Source: Cristatella mucedo
Taxonomy: Eukaryota > Bryozoa > Phylactolaemata > Cristatellidae
Direction of reading: 5' to 3'
Length of the DNA stretch: 64,000 nucleotides
NCBI GenBank assembly: GCA_009760855.2
Contig: WPIO01000169.1
Span: 370,001-434,000, forward strand
Shown here: positions 2,455 to 62,036 of the stretch, piece after piece
How the letters are laid out: the number at the start of each line of letters is the position of its first letter
How positions within the stretch are numbered: the stretch's first letter is position 1
Position numbers and translations under genes: made by a program
The notes under the pieces: generated by a model
Told to the model about the DNA's origin: nothing
What the model saw: the letters and a program-made list of their open reading frames with translations, nothing else
The model's database searches: none

Positions 2455-2937
2455 GCGCCGCCGCGAGCGCTTCAGTGGCGCTTCTCACGCAATACGCGTG
2501 CGCAGCCTCAACGTCATCAGCCCCGACGTCATCAGCCTGGAGGCGGCGGCAGCCTGGAGGCAAGGTAGCCACTACTTTCATCGAAAAGTCGCCGCCGACC
2601 GGCTTGAAACTGTGTAAGCGTCGAATTCGCCAGCTAATGATGCAGCACCGCGAGTCGATTGGTCGATCGCGCCCCGCATATTTCCACATACTGCCTGGAC
2701 GCTGCGAATGCGTGCATTATGGGTATTTAGGGCGCCGCATTGCAGTGCCGACAGCGTCGGTCGCAGCGAAGTACACATTGCCTCTACACAGCTGCTTAGC
2801 GGCGCGGGGCTCGTCGTTGGTGGCAATAACTATGTCTACCGAGACTCTAGAGACTGTTTGAACTTTCGTGACCGAAAACGGTGCCGTCGATGCCGTCAAG
2901 AAAGCCTGGATAATGCCCGGAACGTAGAGCAACAAAG
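2455..2937. other. GC/CpG-rich block without assigned gene
   Basis: An unusually GC-rich stretch for this window, with many CG dinucleotides and a duplicated CAACGTCATCAGCCCC-like motif around 2508-2535. Overlapping open frames on both strands reflect the lack of AT-rich stop codons. A good donor-like AAG|GTAGCC lies near 2564. It could hold promoter-like CpG sequence or more of the flanking gene, but nothing specific can be supported. Confidence 0.35.
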
Positions 2938-3377
2938 GGTACCTAGCTGAACTGCTGCATCAGTTTCAGCCTGTTCGCGCCCTCAGGTCCTGTGTGGACA
3001 ATAAGTTAGCTGTCCCATTCCTCCGCTTAAAGACAGTTGGCGACAGAAGCTTTAGCTCTGCAGGTCCTAGACTGTGGAACTCGCTTCCACAATTCTTACG
3101 AAACGACAACTACTCTACTACTGCCGACTATGGCTCATCCTTTCTCAGCGGCCCTGAGCTGCTACTTCCATGCTAGTCACTACCTCAACTGCTCTCCTAA
3201 CTCTGCTATGCTTGCCACTTTCTCTTTGTTGCGTGAGACGAAGTCTTTTGGGTACCGAATGCGTACCGAAAGCCGCTTAGGCTGTGAGTGCGCTATACAA
3301 AACTCTCCTACGTAACACCCACATGGTCTTTATGACTTTGTGGAGTTACTGAAGGAGATACATTACATTACATTACC
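2938..3377 (+). mobile_element. Family A LINE, 3' end
   Basis: Starts in YLAELLHQFQPVRAL-type sequence and carries the family A C-terminal signature GDRSFSSAGPRLWNSLPQF, then a 3' region ending GGAGTTAC...AGATACATTACATTACATTAC. The pentanucleotide ATTAC tail is diagnostic of the family in this window. The 5' end is truncated and there are frameshifts in the terminal part. Confidence 0.85.
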
Positions 3378-11569: not shown

Positions 11570-11669
11570 ATATATCTATCTATATATATACACACACACA
11601 CATATATATAGTATATATATATAATTTATATTAATATAACAACATATAACAATATATAATATATACTAA

Positions 11670-11717
<48 letters not shown>
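11570..11717. repeat. (TA)n/(CA)n microsatellite
   Basis: A long run of TA with a short CA block and imperfect ATAATATAT units, ending in about 20 pure TA units. Such tracts are prone to length change and can extrude. Confidence 0.9.
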
Positions 11718-11719
<2 letters not shown>

Positions 11720-12083
11720 CGGTGCAGCAATAATGAGTGTCATGTCAAATATCAGTGGGATTGGAATAAATAATTTCTCCAATTCGCAAATGTGGTAGCA
11801 ACATTCACACTTTCACAACTGATTTTTATCAGGCATTACTGAGCCGGCCTTTTCTAATCGATGGTAAGGAACGATTATAATCTTTTACTGGGCTTGCTAA
11901 ACTATTAATACCATCTTAAATATGGTCCGCACGTTTGTACGTTCTGTGCACGCAAATCAACGCTGATTAGCAAGTCGGGATGAATACATTTAATAAAACT
12001 GGATACTTTTTTATTTATAAGAAAATTATTAAATAAATATGTTTTTGTTTTTCCTCACACACAGATTTTGCTCCATTAACTAG

Positions 12084-12311
12084 GAACCAAAAGCTGGGCA
12101 GTCAGTTGGGTGGGTCTACCTGCTGGTCAGCCGGGACACTCAGACTTCGAAGGACACCTTCGAATGGCAAAGGGAGTTTTTGCGGGTGCAAACTAATTTC
12201 CGCACACATTCTGTGGTTTCCGCCTGCCATTGCGGTTGGGAGAGTTTTCACAGCAGTGCATTGGCAAGAAACCGGAAGCAAAGCGAGCAGAACATATTAG
12301 CGTACCAATAG
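12084..12311 (+). pseudogene. Broken Ig-like domain exon
   Basis: The frame beginning EPKAGQSVGW contains VYLLV...DTFEW, which lines up residue for residue over 18 positions with VYCIV...WDVSW of the exon at 12873 (same Y, V, D/W spacing), but the first Ig cysteine is Leu. The second half reads HSVVSACHCGWESFHSS, corresponding to the F strand. The W-to-C distance is only about 20 residues, against 43 in the 12873 exon, so roughly 23 codons are missing. No good acceptor or donor bounds it and a stop ends it. It looks like a decayed duplicate of a neighbouring Ig exon; convergence by chance cannot be excluded. Confidence 0.4.
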
Positions 12312-12872
12312 CAGACGAAGGACAGGAAAACTAGCCGCAAAGGAAGTCACTCAGTGCCACACTGCCGAAACTCAATCGGAACGTGGCATATGACAAATCC
12401 TACAACAATAACAGGAATAATTCTCACTAAGAAGCCCCAACGCTTTGTACGGTGAAAGCTTAACCATTGCTTCCCCTACGGCAAGGCCAAAACGGAAAGA
12501 GACTGAAGGGAAAGATTCAAGCACTTGATGCGACCCAGATCAAGTGGTATAGAGTCATCGCGAGACTGCAAACCCGGCTCGGCAGCTCAGCTAGGCTAAC
12601 CGCTAAGTCACCGGGCACTGAGGCTAGCATTGTAATGCAAAACTGATATATTCCATGATTTTTCACGGGTTTTAGCTGGTTCGTATGTACATTTATACGT
12701 AGATGAGTGTACTACCTAAGCAGCGATCTTGAAAGAAACCACTCTCTTAGAATTGAGGTAATCGTTCTTGCTCACGAGAACAATTATGGTACAATGGAGG
12801 TGCGGTCATAACGCTTGAAGTATAAGAAAACATTTTAGTATTTATGTGAAAACACAATTCTCTCTTTTTTAG
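12312..12872. other. Intronic or intergenic spacer before the Ig exon
   Basis: Unique sequence. The last 15 bases form a pyrimidine tract (TCTCTCTTTTTTAG) that serves as the acceptor of the following exon. Confidence 0.4.
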
Positions 12873-13384: not shown

Positions 13385-14029
13385 TGTCTGTCCACTCGAA
13401 GAGTAGGCTGAACCCTGAAGACGGATTCAAAGTCGTAAATTCTCCACGTACGCCAATATAAACCTTTAATCAAGTCTGTCAATCGTGGATACAAGTCAGA
13501 AAAAATCGTCACCACTGTAATCTAATAGTCGGCTGCCAAGTTACGGTTTGCAAAGTAGTTTGATCAGTTTAAGAGATGTGATAGGCGGTGTTCAAATAAT
13601 GGGAATTATGGGTAACCAGACGTACACAGCGGCTTTCCATGGTGCGGCCTCCGCTATTGCGCCTCCAGACACAATGGAGCTATTACTTCGACACCATTTT
13701 AAAAGCGGGTCACGCAGCGAATAATAAAAGCTTAAAAATTAAATGCTAAAAGTTAAATGTTAAAAGTTTAACATTAAAAGTTAATTACTTACTTCAGCGG
13801 CCGCTAAGCTACATTCACCTTCCAAAAACGCTGCGCAAGTATCGCGACTGGTCCTTGCAGACACCTGACAAATAACGCGTTCGTGAGCTCGCATCTAGAT
13901 TGTTGCCATTTCTTTTATTCAGGCCTTAACTCCTGGGCCGTCAATCTACTCACCATCTTGTAAGGTCTGTCGTCAACACTACACACATGCTACATCGCAC
14001 CGCCATTATCTAAGCTTTTCTGGCTTCCT
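13385..14029. other. Spacer with short AAAGTTAAATG repeats
   Basis: Around 13722-13787 there are four or five imperfect copies of TAAAAGTTAAATG-like units. Otherwise unique. Confidence 0.5.
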
Positions 14030-14180
14030 ATATATAAATATAAATATATGTATATAAATATAAATAAATAAAGTATATATATAGTGCAAATATAGAAAAT
14101 ATATGCAAATATAGTGCACGCGGCATTTACGTGTGTAAATTATAAGAGTGCACGCTGCATTTGCGTGTGTAAATTAGAAA
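14030..14180. repeat. (TATAAA)n tract and 34-bp tandem duplication
   Basis: Bases 14030-14090 consist of ATATAA units. From 14114 the motif GTGCACGCGGCATTTACG-TGTGTAAATT is repeated at 14148 with three mismatches (34-bp period). Confidence 0.85.
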
Positions 14181-16200
14181 ATAATCCCACCCCTTTTCGA
14201 CACTCACCACTACAGCACCATCATCGCTGACTATAAATAACCACGAATGACCCAATGCCATTCAAAATGAGTCAAAGTCTGTCAGATTTATTTTGTCCGT
14301 AAGTAATAGCCAGTATTTAGAGCTGACCGTTACAAAGAAGCAGCTCAACTATGGGCTTCCGACGATCACCAGAGCAGTGCTTTTTAGGACAGGGCCTCTC
14401 TTCTAGTTCTCCTCGAGCTCTCGACGGCTGTGGTGGACGCGATCGATTGAGACGTCAAGATTGACCTCAAGATTCTGTCCAAGCGTCTGGTCTGGACGCA
14501 CGCCCCAGTATAACTAGAATAGTGCTAAACTAGGTTAAGTAAGCGAGAAATTCCGTCCGTCCGTCCATCACGCGGCAAGACGGCTACCAGTATTTCCGGG
14601 AGTCCCGTATGTAATAGACGTGCAATTATTCTACTGTGACTCGGCGAAGCACAGGAAGCGAGCTCTCGTATTTCAGAGTACAGATTTAAGCGGCTGCCGG
14701 TCTTTACCGGAGGCCTTAGAGAATGGGACGCCACGTACTTCGGGAGTAGGCACCCTCTCTCTTCTCTGTCTACGCCACATCCCTGGCGTTGCTGTCGCTA
14801 ACTCAATGTCGGTTTTATTTCTATGCCAATCGAAAGTCAAACCTACATATCCGATGGTCAGCCTTGCCCTCCTCTGCCTGCTTCCGACTCGCCTATCTCC
14901 CGGGCATCCTGCGCAGGTGATATTCGCCTTAGGTGGCCACTAGCTCCGCGTGGCTTCGAGACAATAAAAGCAAACTATTAAATAGCTGTGAGCAAGCTCA
15001 GTGTCAACCTAAAGTTGAAAGACCTCACCTTTAAAATTCGCATCATGTAGCCTCACTGTCGCGAAGAAGGCCTGTAATTTGAGCATGCCGTTCCTAAACC
15101 GCTTGTTATTTAATCAGCGCATTGCCTTAGCAATTAATTTGGCCCACTTCTAAATGAAAGAATGGCTTTAAAACGGGGGCCTGCATCTACTGAAGCAAAA
15201 ATAAATCTCAGTAAACAATTGCCCTCTCATTTGTGACTTACTTTTTAAGGTTTATGCAATTTACTTTGATCAAACTAGTCACGTGCCCTTAATTGTCTGC
15301 AACTGCTGCAGGACTCTGCAACTCATCTAGTTTGTTGTCGTCGGCAATGGCTGCTACATCGCCGCTACTTGCGCTTCGCTGGATCCTGAAACTAAATTGC
15401 TCTAAATCTATTGGATTAGAAATGCTTCGATGGTATTCACGCTCCATGAATTTTCCCGGCTAGGAGCCGATAGCGTGATAACATATAGCTGGGCGGCATA
15501 CAACCCAAGTAGCGTAGTGATGAGTCGCGCACCAGGCTTTGGGCCAGACAAAAGTCATGCTTCAGACTTTGAGCCTAGTGGGAGTTGCGCCCCCTGAGGC
15601 TCAGCGCCGGTCGGCTTCGCGGTGATGCTTTGGGCGCCACATGAGAGTTTTTTGCAAGCTATGGCTGATGCAAGACGCCAAGAAACCATCCGAGGCTTTC
15701 GAATACATTTCTCCGTGCTACGAAAAGATTTTTGTTCTCATATGTGGGCTCTCATAATTGTTGACGTGTTCCCCTGCTGACGTCATACCTACGCGAATCA
15801 ATACTGCACGCGAAAGTTGCACTCCGGGGGGTGGGGCTCTTGCTCCAGGTCACGTTTCAGTTGCCTCTCCGTTCGGCACAAAATACTACTATCTTTTGGT
15901 AATGACTTCAGTTCGCACTTATCTAATGTCTGGAACTTGCCTTTAGGCTTCTGTCATAACCTGTAGCAGACTTTGCATCATTTAAATAAAGGCCAAGACG
16001 CATCTGGTCCAATCAGTTTTCTTTGCGTCCTAACAGAATTATTCTTAAAAACACTGTAAATAGAATTTGAGCGCTGTGGCCTCACTGAGAGCAGTCAGCA
16101 GTGCAATGCCCATTGACCTACGACTTTTGGTCTTTCTCTGTCTTTATATTGTCACCGCTGATCTAGCTGCTAAGACAAGTAGGCATAAGAGTACGCATAT
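14181..16200. other. Two-kilobase unique region
   Basis: Moderate GC content. An open frame at 14620-14943 and others near 15758 have no recognisable domain and no matching acceptor/donor pair that I could support. No LINE or SINE signature. If the IgSF gene is real, this is intron. Confidence 0.35.
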
Positions 16201-21650: not shown

Positions 21651-24140
21651 TGAATAATAATGATGATAATATTAATAATGATGCCCTTGATAATGCGCCC
21701 TCAGAGGACTCAATCTCTTTCTAGGCTCTCGAAATTTGCTGCAAAATAAACACGATCGAATGGTGAGGGGTATCCTGCTTGATAAACAGCATGAATAACA
21801 TGGTTAGGGGTGACGTGCACAGGGTCAGCATGCAAGAGTGGTTAGTGGCAGCATGCAACAGGGCCAGCACGCATAAGCGCACACACAACGAATTGCAGGG
21901 ACCTAATAAATGCTGCCTTAAATAGGTGTTTTTAATTTCCTTTTAAATGTGGACAAGTCAGGAGATGTCATGACGCAAGTCGGGAGTGAGTCCCAGGCTT
22001 TGAGAGCGTACGAACTAAATGCACGGTCTCCAAAAGATTTGAGGTTTTTTCGAGGTATAGGTAACAGTTAGATTCCGAAAAGCAGGTGGCACGATGCTTA
22101 TCCTGATGAAAGTACATCTGATAGGTAGGCTGGAGCCAAATAATGAAGACAGTTAAAAATGAGCGACAAAAACTTGAAGTCGATCCGTTGTCCGGCTGGT
22201 AGTCAGTGCAGGTCGGCGAGAAGAGGTGTGTTGTGGCAACTGGGACGCTCACGACAGACAAGCCTAGCTGCAGAGTTGTGCACCGGCTTTAAGCACCTGA
22301 GTGTGCAGGTGGGTAGACCAGCAAGCAATGAGTTACAGAAGTCAAGACGGGATGTCACAAATGCAAGGACCAACTTAGATGTGGTATCCCTAGCTAAACA
22401 AACCCAAATTTAAAAAATGTTACATAGCTGAAAGTAGGCAGACTTGATTGTGTGGAGCAGATGTGGTTGTCTAATGAAAGGTCACTTTGGAGCACCCACC
22501 AAGATTTCATGCAGGTACAACAGCAGATATGCTGGCGGAGCCAATTTTGAGCATCAGCCGTTCCAATTTCTTAAGCACACATAGTTTGCCCACAACAAGA
22601 AAGTTTTTTTATCATCATTCAATTTAAGAAAATTTGCTGCCATCCATGTGTTGATGTCATCAATACATGCAGCAAAAGAGTATAGAGAATTCGAGGTACT
22701 AAGACTGGGAGGTTCAAAACAAAGGTACAACCGAGTGTCATCCACATAGAAGTGAAAGTCTAGATTGTGCTTGGCAATCATATCGGCAAGAGGAAGAGTA
22801 TAAACCGCGAAAAGAACTGGACCTAGCACGGAGCCCTGAGGTACCCCATATTTCAGAGGACCTTGGATGATCTTTGTGCATTCACATCAATACTCTGGAG
22901 TCTCCCACTAAGGTAAGACCTCAACCATTGCAGAGCAGTGCCAGTGACGAACAGATGAGATGAGAAGTGCTCAAGAAGGACTTGGTGATCGATAGTACCA
23001 AAAGCTGCCGCAAGATCGAGAAAAACTAGCAGAGATACTCTACCCACATCTGAATTCCTAAGTAGGTTGTTGTACACCGAAGTAATGCCGACTCTGTGGT
23101 GTAATTAGCTCTACAGCCAGACTGGAGCTTACTAGCACGGTTTGAAGTTTCAATATATGAGTTCAGCTGGCCTGCTATGACTGGTTCCAGTGACTGTGAT
23201 AGGAACGGTAAAAGAGAGACTGGGCGGTAGTTGCTCAAGTTCTCTTGGTCTAGTGTCGCTTTCTTGAGTAGTGGCCTGAACTACAGCTTTTTTTGAAAGG
23301 TTCTGGGACATGACCTGAGGCAAAGGACATATTAATGATGTCAGTTATGCATGGCAGCCGCAGATCAATGCAACGTAGTAGCAGGATAGTAGGAATAGGG
23401 TCCAAAGGACATGCTTTCTTGAATTGGGGTAAGAGCTTCAGGACAAAGTCACAAGTGACCTGTTTGAATGTAGACATTGAGGTGCTGCAAGGAATCGAGG
23501 GAAATCACTCTAGGGAAGGATGCTGAATTGCAGGGATGGACTTCCCAATCTTGTCTATCTTCTGAGCAAAGAATGTAGAGAAGCGATCAGCTAGATCATC
23601 ACAGGGATCATCCGGTAAGGAGCTAACATGCCAGCGGTTGATCAGATGGCTGATTGTCGACATCAGCATTTTTGGATTGTGCATCTGTGATTCAACGATG
23701 TTTTTTATAGAAGCTAGAATTGGCCTTTGCTAGGATCGATTGGTACGATTTATAGCAGTCCTCTTATGCCTGTCGATGGGCATTCAGTCCCGATCTTTTG
23801 TATGCTTTTTCAAGCTTGCGCTTAGTAGACCCAGCTAGTCTAATGCCGTTTGAGCGAAGACGCAAAGTGTGCTTAGTCATAGGTGCAAATTTGTCACGCA
23901 TCCCAGCCAGTGTCCTGTTGTAGCAATCTAACAGTGATGACAGGTCAGATTGGGGATTGAGCAGCAAAGGCAAAGCAAAAATTCTCGAACGGACTGCGTT
24001 GACATCAAGAGTTTTGAGGTTTCGCGATCGCAGGAGATTTTAGATGAGAAGGAGGGTACACTTTGTAGACTAAGTGAGTGAGATCTGCATATTTTTAAAT
24101 AAGCAGAATTAAAAAAATTGGCTATGATAAAGTGCTGTTG
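21651..24140 (-). mobile_element. Family B LINE, longest copy (about 2.5 kb), minus strand
   Basis: From the (ATT)n tail at 21655 the minus strand continues through the 3' UTR, the C-terminal region, the YVDD box (FHFYVDDTRLYLCF, normally YADD), GPVLFAVYTLPLADMI, VFLDLAAAFGTIDHQVLLEH, MSNYRPVSLLPFLSQSLEPVIAGQLNSYI, LDPIPTILLLRCIDLRLPCITDIINMS, and an N-terminal segment with TKHTLRLRSNGIRLAGSTKRKLEKAYKRSG. The order is that of CR1/L2 ORF2. Endonuclease sequence is not reached. Many frameshifts: inactive. It is the best internal reference for the family. Confidence 0.9.
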
Positions 24141-32482: not shown

Positions 32483-33270
32483 GAATAATAATGATAATAA
32501 TGATAATGCATTTGATAAAGCGCCCTCAGAGAACTCGATCTCTCTCTAGGCGCTTTACGTTGGCTGCAAAGGGAAATGCAATTGAATGGTGAGTAATATC
32601 ATGCTTGATAAAAACATGAACAACATGGCTAGGGATGACATGCACAGGGTCAGCATGCAAATGTGGCTAGTGACAGCATGCACAGTGTCAGCACGCATAA
32701 GCACATCGAGGACGAGTCACAGGGACCCACTAAACGCTGTCCTAAATAAGTGTGTTTTTACGTTCTTTTTAAATGTGGTCAAGTCCAGGGGATGTTGTGA
32801 CGGAAGTAGGGAGTGAGTTCCAGGCTTTGAGGGCATAGGAACTAAATGCACGGTCTCCAAAGGATTTGAGGTTTGTACGACGCATTTGTAGACTGTTGGT
32901 GTCTGCAAAGCGGGTGGTACAATTCTTGGCCTGATGGGGTAGTATATCTGAGAGATAGGCTGGAGCCAAGGAATGAAGTGACCTAAGAGTGAACGCAAAA
33001 CCTTGAAGTCGATCCGTTGCTTGACTGGTAGCCAGTGCAGGTCGGCGAGAAGTGGTGTAATGTGGCAACTGCCACGCTCACGACAGACCAGCCTAGCTGC
33101 TGAGTTTAGCACCAGCTGCAATCGCCTGACCGCACATGCTGGTAGGCCAGTAAGCAGTGAGTTGCAGAAGTCGAGACGGGATGTCACGAATGCGTGCACC
33201 AACTTGGACGTGGTATCCTTATCTAAACAAGCCCGAATTTTAGCATTGTTATGAAGCTGAAAATGGGCAG
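32483..33270 (-). mobile_element. Family B LINE, well preserved 3' part, minus strand
   Basis: An (AAT)n tail is followed by the full 3' UTR and a C-terminal coding frame with AKIRACLDKDTTSKLVHAFVTSRLDFCNSLLTGLPACAVRRLQLV, LADLHWLPVKQRIDFKV and GDRAFSSYALKAWNSLPTSVTTSPGL. Nearly uninterrupted; among the younger family B copies. 5' end at about 33270. Confidence 0.9.
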
Positions 33271-37619: not shown

Positions 37620-38310
37620 ATGAAACAGCTACCTGCCGCATCCTTCTACCAGCATGTGAAATCAGGCCATTAGAGATCATGCGAAGCTCCGCAGCTAGGC
37701 TTGTCTGTCGTGAGCTTCGCAGTTGCCACATCTCATCACTTCTCGACGACCTGCACAGGCTACCAGTCAAGCAACCGATTGTCTTCAAGGTTTTGTCGCT
37801 CACTTTAAGGTCCCTTCAGTCTTTGGCTCCAGCCCATCTATCAGATCTACTGCCTAACCAGGCCAAGCATCGTACCAGTCGCTTTTCAGAATATAAATGT
37901 TTATCTATACCTCGTATTAACCTCAAATTCTTTGGAGACCGTGCATTTAGTTCATATGATCCAAAAGCCCGGAACTCACTCCCGACTTGCGTAAAGACAT
38001 CCCCTGACTTGACCACATTTAAAAAGAAATTGAAAACACACCTATGTAGGACAGCATTTAGTGGGTCGCTGTGATTCGTTCTTCACACGCTCATGCGTGC
38101 TGACACTATGCATGCTGCCACTAACCACATTTGCATGCTGAATCTGTGCACATCATCCCTAACCATGTAATTCATGTTTATCAAGCATGATATTACTCAC
38201 CATTTAATCGCGCTTCTCTTTGCATCAAATGTGACGCGCCTACAAATAGATTAAGTTCTCTGAGGGCACTTTATCAAGTGCATTATTATTATTGTTATTA
38301 TAAGCGTTGA
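37620..38310 (+). mobile_element. Family B LINE, C-terminal region and 3' end
   Basis: One frame of 167 codons gives SSAARLVCRELRSCHISSLLDDLHRLPVKQ, FGDRAFSSYDPKARNSLPTCVKTSPDLTTFKKKLKTHLCRTAFSGSL-stop (in the usual family B order), followed by the 3' UTR and ATTATTATTGTTATTATAA. 5'-truncated. Confidence 0.9.
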
Positions 38311-41887: not shown

Positions 41888-42770
41888 ATGTATGTCCGTC
41901 TGTAACTCCACAAAGTCATAAAGACCTTGCGGGTGTTATGCAGGAGAGCTTTGTATAGCGCACTCACAGCCTATGCGGTTTCGGTACGCATTCGGTAGCC
42001 AACAGACTTCGTCTCACGTAACGAAGAAAAATTAGGAAGCATAGCAGAGTCAGGAGAGCAGTTGAGATAGTGAGTAGCGTAGAAGTAACAGCTCAGGACG
42101 GCTGAAAAAGATGTGCCATAGTCGGTAGCAGAAGAGCAGTTGTCGTTACGTAAGAATTGTGGAAGCAAGTTCCAAAGTCTAGGACCTGCTGAGCTAAAGC
42201 TTCTGTCGCCAACGGTCTTTAAGCGGAGGAATGGGAGAAATAATTTATTGACCACACAGGACCTCAGGGAGCGAACAGGCTGAAACTTATGCAGCAGTTC
42301 AGCTAGGTACGAAGGAGGCTAGCCAAAGCGGGCCTTGTGGGTCGGCGTAAGAGCTTTGCTCTGTATCCTTTGACCAACCGCATCCATCATAGCTCTTTTA
42401 GCAACGGATACACGTGCTCAAACCTCTGGGACTGGAAGACTAGCCTTGCAGCCATGTTCATAGTCCGCTGCAGTGGCCTAATAGCTTTTTTTGGCAGCCC
42501 AGCCAAAAGGGAATTACAATAATCAAGCCGAGACAGAACTAAAGAGCTAGTTATATTTTTTACAAGCCACTGTGGGAGAGAGCTCCTAATCTTGGATAGG
42601 GATCGGATGTGATGGCTAGCTGTGGAAGCAGTCTTCTGAATGAAGCCTTTGATATTGAGGCAGCTGTCGAAAACGACACCTAAATTTCGAGCACCGGGTG
42701 ATGGTAGCACAATAGCATCACCTATTAGAACAGCAAAGCCTTTTACTCCAGCCACACGCTTAGGGTGTCC
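41888..42770 (-). mobile_element. Family A LINE, minus strand
   Basis: Same region as 33716-34700: VAGVKGFAVLIGDAIVLPSPGARNLGVVFDSCLNIKGF, SSLPQWLVKNITSSLVLSRLDYCNSLLAGLPKKA, then GDRSFSSAGPRLWNLLPQF and the 3' end. It stops at GGGTGTCCTAT, joined to the pyrimidine tract that begins the duplicated unit. Confidence 0.9.
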
Positions 42771-42894
42771 TATCTCACTCTCCGCCTCTCTCTCTCTCTC
42801 TCTCTCTCCTCTCCAGGAGTTCCAGAGCTGCTTGCACGAAGGCTGCCTCTACATCAGTATTTACGCTCGCTCACTTTTTTTGCCAGCATAGGAT

Positions 42895-42995
42895 ACAATA
42901 CAGCCGTCGTCATCATTACCGCTACTGGCTTTTTGGGGGCGACGCTAATCCTAGCCGTGCGGCTATCGCCCACGAGCCCCTACAATATTACCTGA
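42895..42995 (+). other. Transmembrane-like open segment in the duplicated unit
   Basis: After a pyrimidine-rich acceptor-like CACTTTTTTTGCCAG the plus strand reads a hydrophobic stretch of about 20 residues (NTAVVIITATGFLGATLILA) followed by VRLSP and soon a stop. The same frame is kept in copy 2 (about 47490-47590) except for a TGA just upstream. Base composition is GC-rich, unlike its flanks. It could be a transmembrane exon of another gene or chance; no gene is assigned. Confidence 0.25.
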
Positions 42996-43273
42996 CTAGG
43001 AGTCGTTCACAGGTCACCATGCTCGGTACAGTTTGCTGTTACCGCACTGAATACTGCAATCAGCTGGAAGCGATTTCTGCCTTCTGGCATCAAGAAGTAT
43101 CAAAAGCGTGTTCTTTATGCGTTCTAAATGTATTGCAGACGAGCATATTATTATTACCAGCCAGCTATTTCAAATTAATCCCAATTTTTTAGTTTTCCTC
43201 AATTGCCTTATTTTATCGAGAATTGTAGCTCTACACAGCCGAAATGCAATAGAAATGTGTAATTTGAAGGTAA

Positions 43274-43279
43274 TTTATT
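43274..43279 (-). promoter_or_regulatory. AATAAA polyadenylation signal of peptide gene copy 1
   Basis: Minus-strand AATAAA 62 bases after the stop codon at 43341; conserved at 47869-47874 in copy 2. Confidence 0.6.
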
Positions 43280-43340
43280 CAGATGAATAGGTCTGAAACT
43301 GGTAAATTTTGCTGTATATCTGAATTTCAGGTATTGTCAC

Positions 43341-45698
43341 CTACTGCTTCTGATGTGCCACTGCTTTGATAATCTTTGGAAGCAGGTTGAAGGCCAACTT
43401 TGCTAGAAGTCCCCAGAATCTCTTGTTTTCGTCGTATTCTGAAACGTGAGGAATATTAAGACTTTATTGAGTAATCTATCCAGTGGTAAAAATAACTAAA
43501 TTAAATCGAAGGAAAACTCTCGTTTAACCGGTCTTGCGTTCGATTTGATTACCTGTGAAAACCACTTTCATTTCATCTTCCAACTCAGGGCTCAGGTCGG
43601 CAGTTTCCTCCAAACTCTGAAAGTGAAATAATTTGCGAATGTCAATCACTGTTTGGTGTGATCAATCAATATGCATTGTATGGAACATGAAACATCATGT
43701 TTCGGTTCCTAGGTTCACAAAAAATTTGTCTTTAGCTTTACCGTAGCTCGCTACAAGCTAGTCAATAATGAAAAAGATAATATACTTAATATATCATCCT
43801 CAGATAACTCAATCTCTCCCTAGGCACTTTAAGTTTGCTTTAAGGAAAGCGGAATAAAATAGTTAGTAGTCGTACCCTGAATAAACAGTAGGAATAGCAT
43901 GGTTAGGGGTGAAATGCACAGGATTCGCATGCAAGAACGGTTAGTGGCAGCATGCCCAGTGTAAGCCCGCATGAGCACATAAAAGATGAAACAATGGGAC
44001 CTACTAAGTGCTGTCTAAAATAAATACGTTTTTAGTTTCTTTTTAAATGTGGAAAAGTTAGTAGATGTGGTGACGCAAGTCGGGAGCGAGTTCCATGCTC
44101 TTGGAGCGCACAAACTAAAGGCATGGTCTCCAAAGGATTTGAGATTTCTACGAGGTATTGTGAAGGACTTAGATTCCCAAAGGCGTGTTGAGAGGGGCTT
44201 AGCCTGGTGGGGCAGTAGACCTGATAGGTTTGCTGGAGCCAAAAAATGAAGGGATCTAAAAGTGAGCGACAAAACCTTGAAGTTAATGCGTTTCTTGACT
44301 GGGAGCCAGTGCAGGTTTGCGAGAAGGGGTGTGGTGGGGCAACTAAGATGCTCACGACAGACAAGCCTAGCTGCAGAGTTTTGCACAAGCTGTAGGCGCC
44401 TGATTGCACACGCCAGTAGACAAGCAAGTAATGAGTTACAGAAGTCAAGACAGAACATCAGAAATGCATGGATCATCTTAGATGTGGTATCCCTACCAAA
44501 ACAAGCCCAAAGTTTAGTAATGTTATGCATCTGAATGTAGGCATGTTTGACTGTAGAGCTGATGTGGTTGCTTAAAGAAAGGTCACTTTGGAGCATGACC
44601 GTTATGTTTTGTGTAGATTTAACGGGAGATATACTGGCAGAACTGATTTTGAGCGTTAGCCTTCACAACTGAATGTCACCTGCACAGAAGTGAAAACCTA
44701 GATTGTGCTCGGCAGTGGAATCGCCAAGAGGGAGAGTATAAATCATGAAATGAATGAAACCAAGCAAAGATCCCTGAGGTAGCCCATATTTCAGTGGTTC
44801 CTCACATGATCTTAGTCCTTTCACGTCAGTACTCTAGAGTCTTACACTGAGACAGGACCAGAACCATTGCCATTGCAATGCAGTGTCAGTTATGCCTAGA
44901 GGAGATGAGAGACGCTCAAGAAGAACTGGCAATCGATATTATCGAAAACTGCCAAAATATTGAGTGAAGCTAGCAAAGATACTCTACCTAAGTCTATATT
45001 TATAAGTAGGTCATCATACACCTGAAGCAATCCTGACTTTATGGAGTGATTAGCTCGAAAACCAGACCTGCACTTAAACTGTAGTTTCAATATACGTGTT
45101 CAGTTGGTTTGCCACGACTCGTTCCAGTGTCTTTGATAGGGACGGTAGAAGGGGGACTGAAGCTGAAGCCGCTCAGGTTCTCTTGGTGTAGTGCCGCTTT
45201 CTTGAGTAGTGGCTTAACTACGGCTTTTTTGAAATTTGCTTGGACATGACCTAGGGGTAATGACAGAATAATGATATTATTTATGCACCACAGCAGCAGA
45301 TCTAAGCACCGTAGAAGCAGGACGGTGGGAATAGGGTTCAGAAAAGTAGTTGTCTTTTTTGATTGGGATATGAACTTTAGGATTAGGTCACTAGTGACTT
45401 CCTTGAGGGTAAACATTGAGGTTCTGGAAAGAATTGGGGCAGGAATTCCATGTGGGAGGCTGCCAATTTAGAGATTGACTTCCTGATCTTGTCTATTTCA
45501 TTGACAATAAAGTTAGAGAAGCAATCAGCTAGATCATGTCAGGGATCACTGATTAAGAAGCTAACCTGAGAGACTTGGTCAACATATCTTACTGTCCATA
45601 ATCGATAATTTAATTTGACATTGCTCCTATTAACTTACTGCAGACGACAACAGACTGATCATCAGTACGACGACAACGGCGAAAGCTGTTGTCTTCAT
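43341..45698 (-). CDS. Secreted amphipathic peptide precursor, copy 1 (antimicrobial/cytolytic-like)
   Basis: Three exons on the minus strand: 45698-45639, 43616-43553 and 43438-43341. Introns are GT-AG (donors A|GTAAGT and G|GTAATC; acceptors TTTCAG). Predicted length 73 residues. Exon 1 (20 residues) is a classic signal peptide: Met-Lys-Thr-Thr, a hydrophobic core of Ala, Val, Leu and Ile, and a Ser-Ala end. Exon 2 encodes an acidic propiece with many Glu and Asp. Exon 3 opens with a few more acidic residues and a Lys-Arg pair, the usual furin/prohormone convertase site. A C-terminal peptide of 25 residues follows, beginning Phe-Trp-Gly, with four Lys, one His, no acidic residue, one central Pro and hydrophobic residues at helical spacing. 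The signal - acidic pro - KR - cationic helix plan is that of many animal antimicrobial and venom peptides; the membrane-active role is inferred. Similarity to any named family is only by pattern. Intron 1 (2 kb) holds a family B LINE. Confidence 0.75.
43766..45520 (-). mobile_element. Family B LINE in intron 1 of peptide gene copy 1
   Basis: 3' end with TCATCCTCAGATAACTCAATCTC at about 43795, then C-terminal coding sequence (DTTSKMIHAFLMFCLDFCNSLLACLLACAIRRLQLV, FGDHAFSLCAPRAWNSLPTCVTTSTNFSTF), the RT region and the upstream LNPIPTVLLLRCLDLLLWCINNIIILSLPLGHV. Same orientation as the host gene. Shared with copy 2 at the same place, so it was inserted before the duplication. Heavily frameshifted. 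Confidence 0.9.
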
Positions 45699-45722
45699 TT
45701 TTCTAAAATTATATCACAGGAC

Positions 45723-46329
45723 TTAGATATCCTCTTGTCAAGAAACCAGCAACTCAGAATGTTTCATACAATCACGTAGGCTAGTTTACTTCCGCAATTT
45801 CATTTCATAAGTTTACTTGTTTAAATGGCAAAGAAACCGGTAATCTACAAGTTTGGGGGAAACGGCTGCGATTGAGGAATTACGATTAGCATTTTACTAG
45901 TGTTTCGAAATGGTCACGATTGCAAGAGCTTATGAATTTACCTAGAAACGCCATTCTTGAGAACTGCCGACTCGAGCTATAATAACCAGCGCACCTGAAG
46001 AATACCTGATACCTGAAAGAAGCTCATTTATTTTATGCAAATTTCATTCGTAAGCATGCACACGTAAAGAATTTTCCGGAAATAATGACACTAAATAATT
46101 TAAATTAAGAGCCGGCCCCTAATAGGTTGGTACACACAGAAACAGTGCAATCACCTCAAAGCGTATGGCTAGCTAGATAGCTGGAGACTTTAATGACACA
46201 TCTCGTTTTGGAGCACGACTTAGTAGCCAGCTAACAGACCACACATACACCGTGTTACAGGCCAAACAACACCCAACTGTGATAATTTTCCTCCAGACGA
46301 GGAGGTTCTCTTTTAGAGCTACTCACTCT
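45723..46329. other. 5' flank of peptide gene copy 1
   Basis: Not alignable with the 5' flank of copy 2. No TATA box in an obvious position. AATTTTAG sits four bases before the ATG and could be a 3' splice site for an upstream untranslated exon. Confidence 0.4.
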
Positions 46330-47345
46330 TTGCTGGGATATCAAGCCGGAACTGCACTATTGGGAGAGAGCTCCTAATCTTGGATTGGGATTGGGTGTGA
46401 TGACTAGCTGTAGAAGCAGTCTTCTGAACGAAGGTTTTGAAATTGAGGCTGCTGTCGAACACGACACCTAAATTTCGAGAACGTGGTGAAGGTCGTACCA
46501 TAGCATCACTCACCTATTGGAAGAGCAAAGTTTTTTAATCCAGCCACACGCATAAGGTGTCTCATGAATAGCAATTTGGTTTTATCATCATTTAACTTCA
46601 GGAAGTTTTCCGACATCCAGGATCAAATTTCGCCAATGCAAGAATTCAGTTTATCGGTTGCTGCAGCAGATTCTGACGGTTTGAATGACAAATTCAACTG
46701 AGTATCGGCAGCATAGAAGTGATATACTATTCCATGGGCCTTAATCACTTTTGACAGAGGTTGTGTATAAGTGGAGAACAGCAAGGGACCGAGTACAGAA
46801 TCTTGAGGAACTTCACAGGTGACCCTTCTCGTGTCTGAGACCTGACCCCAACACGACACGGATTGAACACGATCAGACAAGTATGACTTAAACCATGCCA
46901 GTGCTTAGTCTGCCAGATCGATCGTTGTCCTTAATCGTTCAAGCAAAACTTCGTGACGTTAATGGAGTCGAAGGCAGCAGACAGATCTAGCAGAGCTAAG
47001 GCAGTGACATTCCCGTCGTCGTTGCCACGTAGAAAGTCATTGTTAACACGGAGGAGAGCAGTTTCAGTGGAGTGCTGCCTCTTGAACCCTGATTGAAATG
47101 CTTCTGACATTCCGTTACTTTCAATAGGTTCAACCAGCTGCTTAGCAACAACGTTTTCAAGAATCTTTGATAAGAATGGAAGAAGGGAAACTGGGCGACA
47201 GTTTGCTAGGACCTTTGTGTCTAATCCAGGCTTTTTAAGAATGAGTTTGCCGATTTGAAGGACTTGGGGACGGCCCCTTTTCCCAAAGAAGCATTTAAAA
47301 ATCTTGGTTATGGCAGTTCTAAGTCAGTCTGCCAGTGATGAAACC
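46330..47345 (-). mobile_element. Family A LINE, RT region, minus strand
   Basis: Reads from the GARNLGVVFDSSLNFKTFVQK segment up through YAADTQLNLSFKPSESAAATDKL (YADD region, here YAAD), SVLGPLLFSTYTQPLSKVIK, and the upstream stretches corresponding to VALLDLSAAFDSIDH, FQSGFKRQHSTETALLR and PVSLLPFLSKILENVVAKQL in broken frames. The 3' part is absent: it ends at GTTCCGGC near 46330. Confidence 0.85.
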
Positions 47346-47377
47346 ACAGGGACCACAGAGATGAAGATATAGGGTAT

Positions 47378-47410
47378 CACCTCTCTCTCTCTTCCTCTCT
47401 CTCTCCTCTC
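47378..47410. repeat. (CT)n tract at the start of duplication copy 2
   Basis: CTCTCTCTCTCTTCCTCTCTCTCTCCTCTCC-type tract; the counterpart in copy 1 is at 42778-42813. It marks the left edge of both units and may have helped recombination. Confidence 0.8.
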
Positions 47411-47868
47411 CAGGACTTCCAGAGCTGCTTACACGACGGCTGCCGCTACATCAGCATTTACGCTCGCTCCCTTTCGATGCCAGCATATGATACAATACTG
47501 CCGTCGTCATCATTACCACTACTGGCTTTTTGGGGGCAACGCTAATCCTAGCCGTGCGGCTATCGCCCACGAGCCCCTACAATATTATGTGACTAGGAGT
47601 CGTTCACAGGTAACAATGTGCGGTACAGTCGCTGTTATAGTATTGAATACTGCAATCAGCTGGAAGCGATTTCTGCCCTCTGGCATCAAGAAGTATACAA
47701 ATCATGTTTGTTCTCAGTGCTGAATGTTTTGCAGACGAGCATATTTTTATAACCAGCCAGCAATTTCAAATTATTCTCTTTTTTTAGTTTTCCACAATTA
47801 CCTCATTTCATCGAGCATTGTAGCTCTACTCAACCGAAATGCAATAGAAATTTGTAATTTGACGACAA

Positions 47869-47874
47869 TTTATT
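47869..47874 (-). promoter_or_regulatory. AATAAA polyadenylation signal of peptide gene copy 2
   Basis: Minus-strand AATAAA at the position equivalent to 43274-43279. Confidence 0.55.
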
Positions 47875-47921
47875 CGGATGAATAGGTTGGAAACTGGTAC
47901 ATGTTGCTGTATAGCTTAATT

Positions 47922-50287
47922 TCAGGTATTGTCACCTACTGCTTCTGATATGTCACTGCTTAGAAAACTTTGAAGCAATTCGAAAGCCGTCTTCAAAAGA
48001 GTTCCACAGACTCTCTTGTTTTCGTCGTATTCTGAAACGTGAGGAGAATTAAGACTTTATTAAGCAATCTATCCAGCTGTAAAAATCACTAAATTAAATC
48101 ATAGAAAAACCTCTCGTTTAACCGGTCTTGCGCTTAATGTGATTGCCAGTGAAAACCTCTTTCATTTCGTCTTCCAACTCAGGGCTCAGGTCGGCAGTTT
48201 TCTCCAAATTCTGAAATTGAGATAATTTGAGAATGTCAATCACTGTTGGGTGCGATCAATCAATATACATCGTATGGAAAATGAAATAAAATCTTCTTGG
48301 TCCTAGGCTCACAACAAATTTGGTTTTAGCTTTACCGTAGCTCGCTGCAATCTAGTCAATAAAGATGATACACTTAATATAGCACCCTCAGATACCTCAA
48401 TCTCTTCCTAGGCACTTTACGTTTGCTTCAGGGAAAGCGCAATGAAATAATTAGTAGTCGTACCCTGAACAAACAGCAGGAATACAATGGTTAGGGGTGA
48501 AATGCACAGAGTTCTATTGCAAGAACGGTTAGTGGCAGCTAGCCCAGTGTAAGCACACATGAGCACATAGAGGACGAATCACGAAGAGCCACTAAATGCT
48601 GTTTAAACGAAATGCGTTTCCAGTTTCTTTTTAAATGTGGAAAAATTAGGAGATGTGGTGACGCAAGTCGGGAGCCAGTTCTATACTCTTGGAGCACACG
48701 AACTAAAGGCATGGTCTCTAAAGGATTTGACATTTTTACGAGGTATAGTGAAGGAGTTAGATTCCCAATATCGTGTTGAGAGAGGCTGACCTGGTGGGGC
48801 AGTAGACCTGATAGGTTGGCTGGAGCCAAAAAATGATGGGATCTCAAAGTGAGTAACAAAACCTTGAAGTCAATGCGTTGCTTGACTGGAAGCCAGTGCC
48901 GGTCGGTGAGAAGCGATGTGGGGGGAATCTACAACGCTCACGACAGACAAGCCTAGCTGCAGAGTTTTGCACAAGCTGTAAGCGCCTGATTGCACAAGCC
49001 AGTAGACCAGCAAGCCGTGAGTTACAGAAGTTCAGACGGAACGTCAGAAATGCACGGATCTTCTTAGATGTGGTATGCCTATCTAAAAAAGTCCGAATTT
49101 TAGTAATGTTATGCAACTGAAAGTAGGCATGCTTGACTTGAGAGCTGATGTGGTCGCTTAAAGCAAAGTCACTTTGGATCATGACCGTTATGTTTTGTGT
49201 AGATTCAAAGGGAGATATACTGGCAGAACTGATTTTGAGCGTTAGCCATTTACAACTGAATGTCACCTGCACAGAAGTGAAAACCTAGATTGTGCTTGGC
49301 AGTGGAATCGCCAAGAGGGAGAGTATAAATCAATAAATGAATGAGACCAAGCAAAGATCCCTGAGGTAGCCCATATTTAATTTGTTCCTCACATGATCTT
49401 TGTCCGTTCACATCAGTACTCTAGAGTCTTACACTGAGATTGGACCCGAACCATTGCCATTGCAATGCAGTGTCAGTTATGCCTAGGGCAGATGAGAGAC
49501 GCTCAAGAAGAACCTGGAGATCTATATTATCGAAAACTGCCAAAATATTGAGTGAAGCAAGCAAAGATACTCTACACAAGTCTATATTTATAAGTAGGTC
49601 ATCATACATCTGAAGCAATGCTGACTTTATGGAGTGATTATCTCTAAAACCAGACTTGAACTTAAAATGTAGTTTCAATATACGAGTTCAGTTGGTTCGC
49701 CACGACTCGTTCCAGTGTCTTTGATAGGGACGGTAGAAGGGGGACTGAAGCTGAAGCCGCTCAGGTTCTCTTGGTGTAGTGCCGCTTTCTTGAGTAGTGG
49801 CTTAACTACGGCTTTTTTGAAATTTGCTTGGACATGACCTAGGGGTAATGACAGAATAATGATATTATTTATGCACCACAGCAGCAGATCTAAGCACCGT
49901 AGAAGCAGGACGGTGGGAATAGGGTTCATAAAAGTAGTTGTCTTTTTTGATTGTGATATGAACTTTAGGATTAGGTCACCAGTGACTTCCTTGAATGAAG
50001 ACATTGAGGTTCAGTAAATAATTGAAGTCCGGAATTCCATCATGGTTGCTGCCAATTTAGAGATTGACTTCCCGATCTTGTCTATGTTGTTGACGAAAAA
50101 GCTAGAGAAGCGTTCAGCTAGATCATGTCAGGGATCACTGAGTAAGAAACTAACCCGAGAGCCTTGTTTAACATGTCTTACAGTACATAGTCACCAATTT
50201 AAATTGATATTGTTGATATTAACTTACTGCAGACGTCACCAGATTGATCATCAGTATGACAACAACGGCGAAAGCTGCGGTCTTCAT
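47922..50287 (-). CDS. Secreted peptide precursor, copy 2 (diverged or decaying paralogue)
   Basis: Exons 50287-50228, 48210-48147 and 48031-47922 match those of copy 1 in length and phase, giving 77 residues. The signal exon keeps its hydrophobic core with only conservative changes, and the acidic propiece is nearly unchanged. The segment through Lys-Arg is identical. The C-terminal peptide is very different: 29 residues, first residues Val-Cys-Gly, one Lys, several acidic residues, one unpaired Cys, and a shifted end caused by two 1-base deletions relative to copy 1. The exon 2 donor is G|GCAATC instead of G|GTAATC; GC-AG introns exist but usually keep a stronger consensus. Either this is an anionic, functionally different paralogue under rapid change or a young pseudogene. 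The open frame through exon 3 argues mildly for function, the donor against. Confidence 0.55.
48366..50110 (-). mobile_element. Family B LINE in intron 1 of peptide gene copy 2
   Basis: Duplicate of 43766-45520, with the same truncation and the same frameshifts in most places. Segment 49675-49990 is almost identical to 45087-45400. Confidence 0.9.
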
Positions 50288-50312
50288 TTTTCTGAAATTA
50301 TATCACCGGACA

Positions 50313-51954: not shown

Positions 51955-53372
51955 ATCAGGGTTCAAGAGGTAGCTCTCCACTGAAACTGCTCTCCTCCGT
52001 ATTAACAATGACATTCTACGTGGCGACGATGACATCAATGTCACTGCCGTGGCTCTGCTAGATCTATCAGGTGCCTTCGACACCGTTGATCACGATGTTC
52101 TACTTGAACGATTGAGAACAACGATCAATGTGGCTGACGAGGCACTTGCGTGGTTTAATTTATCCCTTTTTGATTGGGTTCAATCTGTGTCGTATGAGGG
52201 TAAGGTCTCACACATGAAAAGGGTCACCTGTGGAGTTCTTAAAGGGCCTGTCATCGGTCCAATGCCGTTCTTTATTTACTCAACCTCTGTCAAAACTTAT
52301 TAAAACAATGGAATAGGACAAGAATTTTATGCTGACGATACTCAGCTGTATTTTTCATTTAAACCGTCGGAATCTGCTGCGGCAACCGATTAACTGAATG
52401 CTTGCCTTGCCGAAATTCGATCCTGGAAGTCGAAGAATTTCTTGAAACTAAATGACAATAAAACTGAACTGCCGCTTATAGCACAACCTAAGCGTGTGAC
52501 TGGATTAAAACGCGTTGTTCTTCTAATATGTGATGCTGTTGTGGGACAATTACCACGTGCTCAAAATTTAGGTGTCGCTTGCGACAGCTGCCTCAATTTT
52601 AAAATCTTCGTTCCGAATAGTGCTTCTACAGCTAGCCATCACGTCCGATCCCTATCTAAAGTTGGAAGCTTACTTCGACAGTGGCTTGCAACAAATTTAA
52701 CTAGTTCCTTACTTCCGTCTTGGCTTGATGATTGTAATTGCCATTTAGCTGGGCTACCACAGAAAGCATGCAGGCCCCGGCAGCTGGCTAAAAATTTGGC
52801 TGCAAGGCTAGTATTCAAGTATTAGAGGTTTGAGCACGTGTCTCCTTTTTCAAAAGAGCTAAGATGGGTGCCGGTTAAGCAAGGGATACAGAGCATAGTT
52901 CTTATGCTGACCCACAAGGCCTGGCTCGGCTTGGCTCCTTCGTACCTAGCTGATCTGCTGCAGCAATTTCAGCCTCTTTGCGCCCTCAGGTCCCGTGTTG
53001 ACAATGAATTAGCTGTTCAATTCCATTGCTTAAAGACCGTTGGCGATACAAGCATTAGCGCTGCAGGTCCCAAACTGAGGAACTCACTTCCACAATTCAT
53101 ACCCAACGGCGATTACTCTGCTGCTGCCGAATATGGCTCATCCTTTTCAGCGGTCCTAACCGGCTAGTTCTGTGCTACTCATTACCTCATCTGCTCTCCT
53201 GACTCTGCTGTGCTTCCCAATTTCTCTTTGTTTTCGTGAGACGAATGCGTACCGAAAGGCGCTTAGGCTGTGAGTGGGCAATACAAAACGCTCCTGCGTA
53301 ACACCTACATAGTCTTTATGGATTTGTTGAGTTACAGACAGAGATACATTACATTACATTACACTACATTGT
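51955..53372 (+). mobile_element. Family A LINE, longest plus copy
   Basis: Starts at FKRQLSTETALLRINNDIL-type sequence and encodes ALLDLSGAFDTVDHDVLLERLRTTI, a GVLKGPVIGPMPFFIYS segment, FYADDTQLYFSFKPSESAAATD, then the thumb and C-terminal region and a 3' end closing with ACATTACATTACATTACACTACATT. Three long pieces of frame remain, separated by stops. The catalytic YADD is present. Inactive, but useful to reconstruct the order of domains. Confidence 0.9.
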
Positions 53373-60702: not shown

Positions 60703-61656
60703 TTCTAAACTTACTAGTTATGGGCAAACCCAGTGTGATTCAGATATTCGGAAGGCTGACTGTCAAAATTGACTCTGCCAGCATATTTCCCGTCGAATCA
60801 GCTTGAAATCTGGGTGTCAAATTCCAAAGCGACCTCTCGTTAGACGACCACATCAGCTCCACAGTCAAATCTGCCTATTTTCCGCTCACTAACATTGCTA
60901 AAATCCGGGCTCGTTTAGATAAGGATACCACGTCAAAGTTGGTCAATGCATTCGTCGCATCCTGTCTCGACTTCTGCAACTCACTGTTTAGTGGCCTACT
61001 AGCATGTCCGATCAGGCGATTGCAGCTGGTGCAAAACTCTGCAGCTAGGCTTGTCTGTCGTGAGCGTCGCAGTTGCCACAATACTCCACATATCGCCGAC
61101 CTGCACTGTTTACCAGTCAAGCAACGGATTGACTTCAAGGTTTTGTCGCTCACTTTTAGGTCCCGTCATTCTATGGCTCCAGCCTATCTTACCGACATGC
61201 TTCCCCATCAGGCCAAGCATCCTACCACCCGCTTTTTGGAATCCAACCGTCTAGAAATACCTCGTACAAACCTGAAATCCTTTGGAGACCGTGCACTCAG
61301 TTTGTATGCTCCCAAAGCGTGGAACTCCCTCCCGACGTGCAACACATCATCCCCTGACATGACCACGTTTAAAAGGAACTTAAAAACACAACTATATAGG
61401 ACAGCATTTAGTGGGTCCCTGTGAATCGTCCTTGATGTACTTATGCATGCTGACACTGTGCTTACTGCCACTAACCACATTTGCATGCTGACCCTGTGCA
61501 TGTCAACCCTAACCATATTATTCATTTTGATTGTTTTTCAAACATGATTTTAATTACCATTCAATTGCATTTCCCTTTGCAGCAAATGTAAAGCTCCTTG
61601 AAAGAGATTAATTTCTATGAGGGCGCTTTATCAAGTGCATTATTATTATTATTATT
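60703..61656 (+). mobile_element. Family B LINE, well preserved plus copy
   Basis: From VMGKPSVIQIFGRLTVKIDSASIFPVES through NIAKIRARLDKDTTSKLVNAFVASCLDFCNSLFSGLLACPIRRLQLVQ, ADLHCLPVKQRIDFKVLSLTFRS, FGDRALSLYAPKAWNSLPTCNTSSPDMTTF, TAFSGSL-stop, the complete 3' UTR and (ATT)n. A 161-codon frame is still open. Confidence 0.9.
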
Positions 61657-62036
61657 CACGGTCGTACGGTGAGTGGTAGGACCCCTTCGCCAGACACACA
61701 CACTCAGGGAACTTCTCAAAAGAGGATGCATCTACAGTGCCTCCATACTCCTGCCTGCCTGCTGCCTGCTGCCTGTAAAGAAACTGGGCCTCTTCCATGC
61801 GAGGTTAACTGCCCATGCCAGTCCGAAGACAAACCTTTAAGCAAGGTTTAACGCTCTCAGAGCATCAATTCTTGCCAATCGGTACAGCTCATCGGGCTTG
61901 ATCGTGCTGCCTATTGTACAGCACGGCTCATGAACTAGCGACCGTCGAACCTGCGACCAAGACTCGAAGACGGCATCTCGCTGCTCGCAGCGACTAAAGG
62001 CACCGACCGCGGCTACCTCACAATAAGGTAAGCAGC
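61657..62036. other. GC-richer unique segment
   Basis: Contains a CCTGCCTGCCTGCTGCCTGCTGCCTG-type simple repeat (61751-61777, described here as CCTG/CTG units) and a donor-like AATAAG|GTAAGC just before 62031. Confidence 0.4.

Follow-up and report, generated by a model that had tools for sequence, protein, structure and literature searches.

A multigene family of probable secreted host-defence peptides with a hypervariable mature segment in the genome of Cristatella mucedo

A stretch of 64,000 nucleotides (nt) of the Cristatella mucedo genome, referred to here as the window (G000:C76:370001-434000 of a 572 Mb assembly), contains two copies of a three-exon gene, both on the minus strand, and the first copy encodes the precursor of a short cationic peptide. 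When the window's own genome was searched, these copies were found to be part of a larger family. It is probable that the family is specific to this lineage, that its products are secreted, membrane-active host-defence peptides, and that it evolves by birth-and-death with diversifying selection.

The initial annotation had proposed two direct units of about 2.9 kb, each with a signal peptide exon, an acidic propiece exon and an exon carrying Lys-Arg, and both the repeat search and the gene models bear this out. The units are spaced ~4.59 kb apart in the window, with block identities of 82-95%. The copy 1 precursor has 73 amino acids (aa): a signal-like peptide that spans exon 1, a 28-residue propiece and a 25-residue mature peptide. 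The propiece has a charge of -7, including the Lys-Arg at its end, versus +4 for the mature peptide. Copy 1 is an intact gene. The two copies were said to agree in exon lengths, phases and splice sites, and this holds for the 60 and 64 nt of exons 1 and 2 and for the phases, but not for intron 2 of copy 2, which has a GC donor. The copy 2 tail, read unaltered, consists of 29 residues and is anionic, with a charge of -3. Thus the copies share a layout and differ in product. Copy 2 is probably decayed and does not serve as another working source of the copy 1 product; the processed secreted peptide that had been predicted from both copies can be read from copy 1. As had been anticipated, the gene is not visible as a long open reading frame (ORF); 27 ORFs of at least 110 aa are listed for the window and none overlaps the exons of the peptide genes, an example of how short genes split by introns escape ORF-based annotation.

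Searches of the genome at the DNA level find at least 23 places for exon 1, at least 15 for exon 2 and at least 16 for exon 3. A protein-level search finds at least 25 exon-sized places up to an E-value (E) of 10, one of which (on C653, E 6) is probably a chance match. These counts are lower bounds, and the family has at least 28 loci. Twenty-eight were retrieved and modelled: nine on C76, seven on C10, six on C165, four on C686, and one each on C488 and C376. Copy 1 exon 1 is found at 18 other retrieved loci with identities of 74-94%. Loci were counted as intact if they have a start codon, GT-AG or GC-AG introns, an open frame, Lys-Arg and a stop codon. Fifteen of the 28 are intact (L040, L042, L043, L044, L046, L049, L051, L052, L054, L058, L059 and L065-L068), and they give 14 distinct precursors, the L054 protein being the same as that of L051. 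Locus L042 displays a GC donor as in copy 2 but is intact in all else. Every intact model has a 60 nt exon 1 and a 64 nt exon 2. The layout can be taken to be beyond chance, because 14 further loci in the genome have these two exons at the same lengths, with the same phases and an open frame. Thus the duplication first noted stands, but it is not just a pair; this is a multigene family of tandem and dispersed copies, nearly half of which are not intact.

The 14 distinct precursors were aligned (alignment A1, which excludes L054 as a duplicate protein along with the 13 non-intact loci). The alignment has 15 invariant columns and none of these lies past Lys-Arg, Lys-Arg itself being a criterion of intactness. 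A signal-like exon 1 and Lys-Arg are present in all 14, and from these sequences the precursor is predicted to be secreted and cleaved at Lys-Arg. All 14 mature peptides are cationic (+3 to +7), are 17-26 residues long and are devoid of cysteine, and a Gly at mature position 3 is nearly invariant. The amphipathic moment exceeds that of shuffled sequences at p<0.05 in 12 of the 14, with L043 and L068 missing at p 0.07; a combined p would count kin sequences as independent and carries no weight. In AlphaFold2 (AF2) modelling, the 31-residue exon 3 peptide of copy 1 folds into one helix over residues 3-30, with a mean predicted local distance difference test (pLDDT) score of 87. The initial description of the copy 1 product, as cationic and amphipathic with a plan like that of antimicrobial peptides, is thus supported by a predicted cationic C-terminal peptide in 14/14 intact precursors.

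A signal peptide, an acidic spacer and one dibasic site would also suit the precursor of a neuropeptide or peptide hormone, with a single C-terminal peptide freed at Lys-Arg. This alternative is disfavoured and appears extremely improbable. The released part is the most variable in the gene body, the opposite of what is expected of a ligand held by its receptor, and the C-terminal glycine that amidation requires is missing from all 14 distinct mature peptides. The 28 loci, 13 of them not intact, also count against it.

The family divides into two subfamilies, a long one with an intron 1 of ~1.9-2.05 kb and a short one whose intron 1 measures 206-210 nt. Codon analysis took in seven of the nine intact long-subfamily members (L051 and L054, near copies of L052, were omitted) and all six short-subfamily members. 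Differences in the mature segment at the three codon positions are 0.45/0.31/0.41 in the long and 0.38/0.34/0.36 in the short subfamily, and the introns of the same members differ by 0.12-0.14 and 0.11-0.12, respectively. The mature distance exceeds the intron distance in every pair of both subfamilies (21/21 and 15/15). A sliding comparison across eight units of the long subfamily, copy 2 among them, gives differences of 0.05-0.20 for exons 1 and 2 and intron 1, and of 0.23-0.48 for the 70 nt that start at the Lys-Arg codons. Difference falls to 0.05-0.10 in the 30 nt right after the stop region, and climbs to at most 0.28 in the remainder of the 3′ part that was compared closely.

A cleaner picture comes from the three young paralogs on C686, L065, L066 and L067. 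These display 7-10 differing sites within the first 27 nt of the mature part, and the rest of 1 kb differs by 1.3-2.4% with gaps omitted (Fisher p 4e-7, 3e-7 and 2.5e-9; the three pairs are drawn from three sequences and are not independent). Replacement to silent changes in the mature part are 7.0:1.0, 7.5:0.5 and 10.0:1.0, on ~46:14 sites. Because this excess is almost wholly amino acid changing, it points to diversifying selection acting on the released peptide.

However, a mainly mutational or recombinational origin of the excess, by local hypermutation or micro-conversion between paralogs rather than by selection, should also be considered. At codons for the same residue, silent difference is also raised in the mature part (0.30 and 0.28, versus 0.06-0.12 upstream), and in the long subfamily the mature and intron distances are uncorrelated (rho -0.22), as if exon 3 ends had been exchanged or flanks homogenised. 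Raised silent change can arise from repeated replacement, alignment limits, flank conversion or local hypermutation. We consider this explanation very unlikely as the main one, given that the young trio shows almost only amino acid changes, that mature distance is correlated with intron distance among short-subfamily members (rho 0.85, p 0.002), and that enrichment in the C10 array is just marginal (3/72 versus 51/5566 sites, p 0.03). A combination of both is the idea that the mature segment is a targeted diversification cassette, in which selection would be joined by a local mutational or micro-conversion process, bounded close to the site of cleavage and to the stop, that raises silent and replacement change together. 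This is quite unlikely. If true, it would mean that an invertebrate without immunity of the antibody type gains an expanding repertoire of defence peptides.

Several results weigh against a family of selected host-defence peptides. Beyond the gene body, the flanks of the eight long units diverge as much as the mature segment or more (0.16-0.37 upstream, and at least 0.29 past ~300 nt downstream of exon 3). Part of this is due to unlike sequence being aligned there, and the mature segment thus stands out from the rest of the gene body, not from its surroundings as a whole. A whole-locus comparison of copy 1 with copy 2 gives no excess (20/76 versus 1389/5005), and of the whole-locus pairs within C10 and C165 only 2/16 fall below p 0.05; these comparisons took 5, 4 and 2 loci. 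Pooled old pairs (10 of the 15 intact loci) have a mature-part ratio of replacement to silent difference (pN/pS) of only 0.94-0.96, because both pN and pS are high. The AF2 helix comes from one short sequence and is weak evidence. No convincing homologue is found among 5.8 billion proteins with single-sequence or family-profile searches, which rely on shared 5-residue words and on predicted proteins, so that a relative split by introns could be missed. Antimicrobial Pfam families are barely matched (PF08024 at E 0.03 and PF08018 at E 0.06, each in 1/14 members), and both rank below DDT, an unrelated domain that is the best match (E 0.006, 2/14).

Finally, 13 of the 28 loci are not intact, copy 2 (L041) included. 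Premature stops lie within the mature part of L045 and L048; the frame is shifted in L047, L050 and L053; L057 has an altered acceptor and no stop at the family position; a single exon was located for each of L055 and L056; and L069-L072 are not intact, with L070 carrying Lys-Thr in place of Lys-Arg. These losses, together with an intron 1 of copy 1 that is mostly repeat, would suit a decaying repeat in which segmental duplication and retroelements have scattered gene fragments that have no present product. That explanation is highly improbable. The ATG, splice sites, frame, Lys-Arg and stop are kept at 15/28 loci, and the silent-poor change in the young trio, with the steadily cationic and mostly amphipathic character of the peptides, suggests that a translated product was recently under selection.

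It should be noted that L047 (G000:C165:76000-82000) resembles L046 (54300-59800) with extra homopolymer bases in exons and introns alike. This suggests that the consensus is faulty in part of the assembly, and the broken frame of L047 may be unreal. Around a centre at ~68 kb of the same contig, family members are opposed at mirrored distances (L046/L047, L045/L048 and L044/L049); the inner two pairs are near-identical and the outer is not. Either the region is a large inverted duplication or the assembly has folded back there.

In further homologue searches, the family profile gave 566 candidates among proteins, none at E≤10, and the copy 1 mature peptide found nothing at E≤10 among Protein Data Bank (PDB) sequences. 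The family profile matched 61 PDB sequences at E≤10, the best at 0.002. These are mostly calmodulin-like proteins, matched by the acidic propiece, and TNFAIP8-like proteins, matched by the propiece and mature part together, and were read as a likeness of helical composition, not kinship. Copy 1 has no Pfam match and copy 2 has one (E 0.2); the 14 members match 20 Pfam families at E≤1, none in more than 5/14. Five 9-residue pieces of the peptides have no match in the literature text, and literature searches on phoronid, brachiopod and nemertean relatives yielded nothing specific among the entries listed. Thus the family is apparently undescribed and new in sequence terms.

The probable role in host defence suggests the following course. 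The signal peptide would direct the precursor into the secretory path, where the anionic propiece may neutralise the cationic helix until a protease of the prohormone-convertase type cuts after Lys-Arg. The released peptide would become helical on anionic membranes and permeabilise microbes, and changing microbes would select a changing set of peptides, leading to birth-and-death evolution and diversifying selection. We infer neutralisation by the propiece, a membrane helix and microbial killing because well-known peptide families behave in this way; an antimicrobial or cytolytic activity is likewise a deduction from sequence.

The same family may instead supply a cytolytic venom or a repellent mucus directed at predators, prey or fouling animals and not at microbes. 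This use is unlikely, but sequence alone does not separate it from an antimicrobial one. Venom peptide families also combine a signal and propiece that are conserved with a mature part that is hypervariable, although many venom peptides have cysteine and the 14 mature peptides here do not. A further point concerns nemerteans, which are among the COX1 matches listed (~80-81% identical), and many of which are toxic according to the available part of one source (PMC10674772). However the COX1 sequence stands apart from two named nemerteans in a tree. It comes from a 21 kb mitochondrial contig (G000:C688, with L063 and L064) that has a GC content of 44-45% and genes on both strands, and whose ORFs at 2537-3365 are repeated, inverted, at 11632-12460 and 13747-14575. 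The C688 COX1 is ~77-82% identical to those of gastropods, cephalopods, nemerteans, annelids and a phoronid (of the 120 rows listed, those with a name are all lophotrochozoans); translation was with the invertebrate code (code 5), chosen by our own reading of conserved columns, and only the candidates sharing most words were scored. In the 32-row tree it falls outside all other rows save one record. One record is 95% identical to it. The hemerythrin family gave no matches, nor did the molluscan haemocyanin family, whose control was likewise without a match anywhere, so that this second negative carries no information.

The long intron 1 holds a repeat. Positions 71-1878 of copy 1 intron 1 recur at many other places in the window, and the remainder sums to about the length of the short-subfamily intron; thus a repeat of ~1.8 kb sits within the intron. 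We read the insert as resembling a long interspersed nuclear element (LINE), because it is repeated and an ORF appears reverse-transcriptase-like, but none of six window ORFs matched Pfam at E≤0.01. The simplest history would be one insertion followed by duplication of the insert-bearing gene. Insert-bearing genes include a five-copy array on C10 with ~10 kb spacing. More copies of the LINE-like repeat, 65-78% identical and in both orientations, are at window positions 21699-23630, 32490-33269, 37645-38299, 60751-61659 and others. Inverted arms at 42020-42773 and 52478-53232, with ~80% complementarity, flank the two-copy region and belong to another repeat family. The family's history, with short-intron and insert-bearing subfamilies, tandem bursts and recent diversifying paralogs, can thus be read in one genome, and provides 14 natural sequences for the study of peptide change under kept function.

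Both ends of the gene display recurrent motifs. An AG lies 4 nt ahead of the ATG, after a T-rich stretch, in 18/18 models and 4/4 further loci; the models have TTTTAG or TTTCAG in 15 cases, TTTAAG in two and TTATAG in one, and the further loci all have TTTCAG. As this acceptor-like AG recurs in the same 22 loci, it is probably where an intron of the 5′ untranslated region (with a non-coding first exon) or a trans-spliced leader ends. AATAAA is found 3′ of exon 3 in 18/18 models and 4/4 additional loci.

Table 1. Positions in the window of the two gene copies and their associated features.
Feature	Position	Strand	Basis or remark
Duplicated unit, copy 1; direct repeat of 47383-50311	42786..45722	-	repeat families D1-D9, D11, D12
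AG of acceptor-like site, 4 nt 5′ of ATG, copy 1	45703..45704	-	same place in other models
Copy 1 exon 1, signal peptide MKTTAFAVVVVLMISLLSSA, 60 nt	45639..45698	-	exon modelling
Copy 1 intron 1, 2022 nt, GT-AG, phase 0	43617..45638	-	gene model
Repetitive insert in copy 1 intron 1, LINE-like by our reading	43761..45568	-	matches many other window places; short-subfamily intron is without it
Copy 1 exon 2, acidic propiece, 64 nt	43553..43616	-	gene model
Copy 1 intron 2, 114 nt, GT-AG, phase 1	43439..43552	-	gene model
Copy 1 exon 3: propiece end, Lys-Arg, mature peptide, stop; 98 nt including stop	43341..43438	-	gene model
Copy 1 mature peptide FWGLLAKLAFNLLPKIIKAVAHQKQ, 25 aa, +4; the family's hypervariable segment	43344..43418	-	translation; helix predicted
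AATAAA polyadenylation-signal-like hexamer, copy 1	43274..43279	-	motif position
Duplicated unit, copy 2	47383..50311	-	repeat search
Copy 2 exon 1, signal peptide, 60 nt	50228..50287	-	exon modelling
Copy 2 exon 2, acidic propiece, 64 nt; followed by a GC donor (not GT)	48147..48210	-	gene model
Copy 2 exon 3 as it stands: Lys-Arg kept, tail off the family frame, 110 nt including stop	47922..48031	-	gene model
AATAAA hexamer, copy 2	47869..47874	-	motif position

The order of signal, acidic propiece and hypervariable mature peptide is shared with precursors of frog skin antimicrobial peptides (temporin, brevinin and palustrin), as far as the available part of the source describes them (PMC7106915). 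In that part, the frog mature region is under positive selection, with nucleotide diversities in two groups of 0.437 and 0.35 versus ~0.115 in the propiece (PMC7106915); this 3-4-fold contrast is close to that of the present family. The present precursors likewise have a conserved signal, an acidic propiece that ends in a dibasic site, and a hypervariable cationic mature peptide. Dermaseptins are further frog skin precursors of the same plan. The signal sequence and exon layout of the frog precursors are unlike those found here, and frogs belong to another phylum. The 20 Pfam families that the 14 members match at E≤1 include no frog signal or propiece family; PF08018, a frog family, is matched in a single member (E 0.06). 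The likeness is one of working, and no kinship in sequence was detected.

Also similar are the myticalins and modiocalins of mussels, which in the accessible parts of two sources are cysteine-free linear cationic peptides of lophotrochozoans, encoded by clustered multigene families with pseudogenes, as here (PMC5577615, PMC12294457). These also have a hypervariable mature region, a Lys-Arg site, a last intron in phase 1 and a first intron ending just before the ATG (PMC5577615, PMC12294457). However in myticalins the acidic region comes after the mature peptide, which lies in the signal peptide exon (as given in the part seen of PMC5577615), whereas the present family places the acidic region first, has three coding exons and does not display the order signal, mature, dibasic, acidic. 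The protein profile search described above found no similarity to myticalins, whose sequences were not compared directly. Amphipathic helical antimicrobial peptides had not been described in bivalves, according to the portion at hand of PMC12294457.

The ponericin-type peptides of ants (PF08024) and the linear cytolytic peptides of scorpions are, like the present peptides, short, amphipathic, helical and cationic. Several, here and among those known, start with an aromatic residue, any residue and Gly, but the ant and scorpion precursor layouts are unlike the one found here; the PF08024 match (E 0.03 in 1/14) is not significant. The present peptides agree with the class of linear cationic alpha-helical antimicrobial peptides in being short and net positive (14/14) and mostly amphipathic (12/14), with a helix modelled for copy 1. 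Frogs are the best-known source of cationic helical defence peptides whose mature parts are hypervariable.

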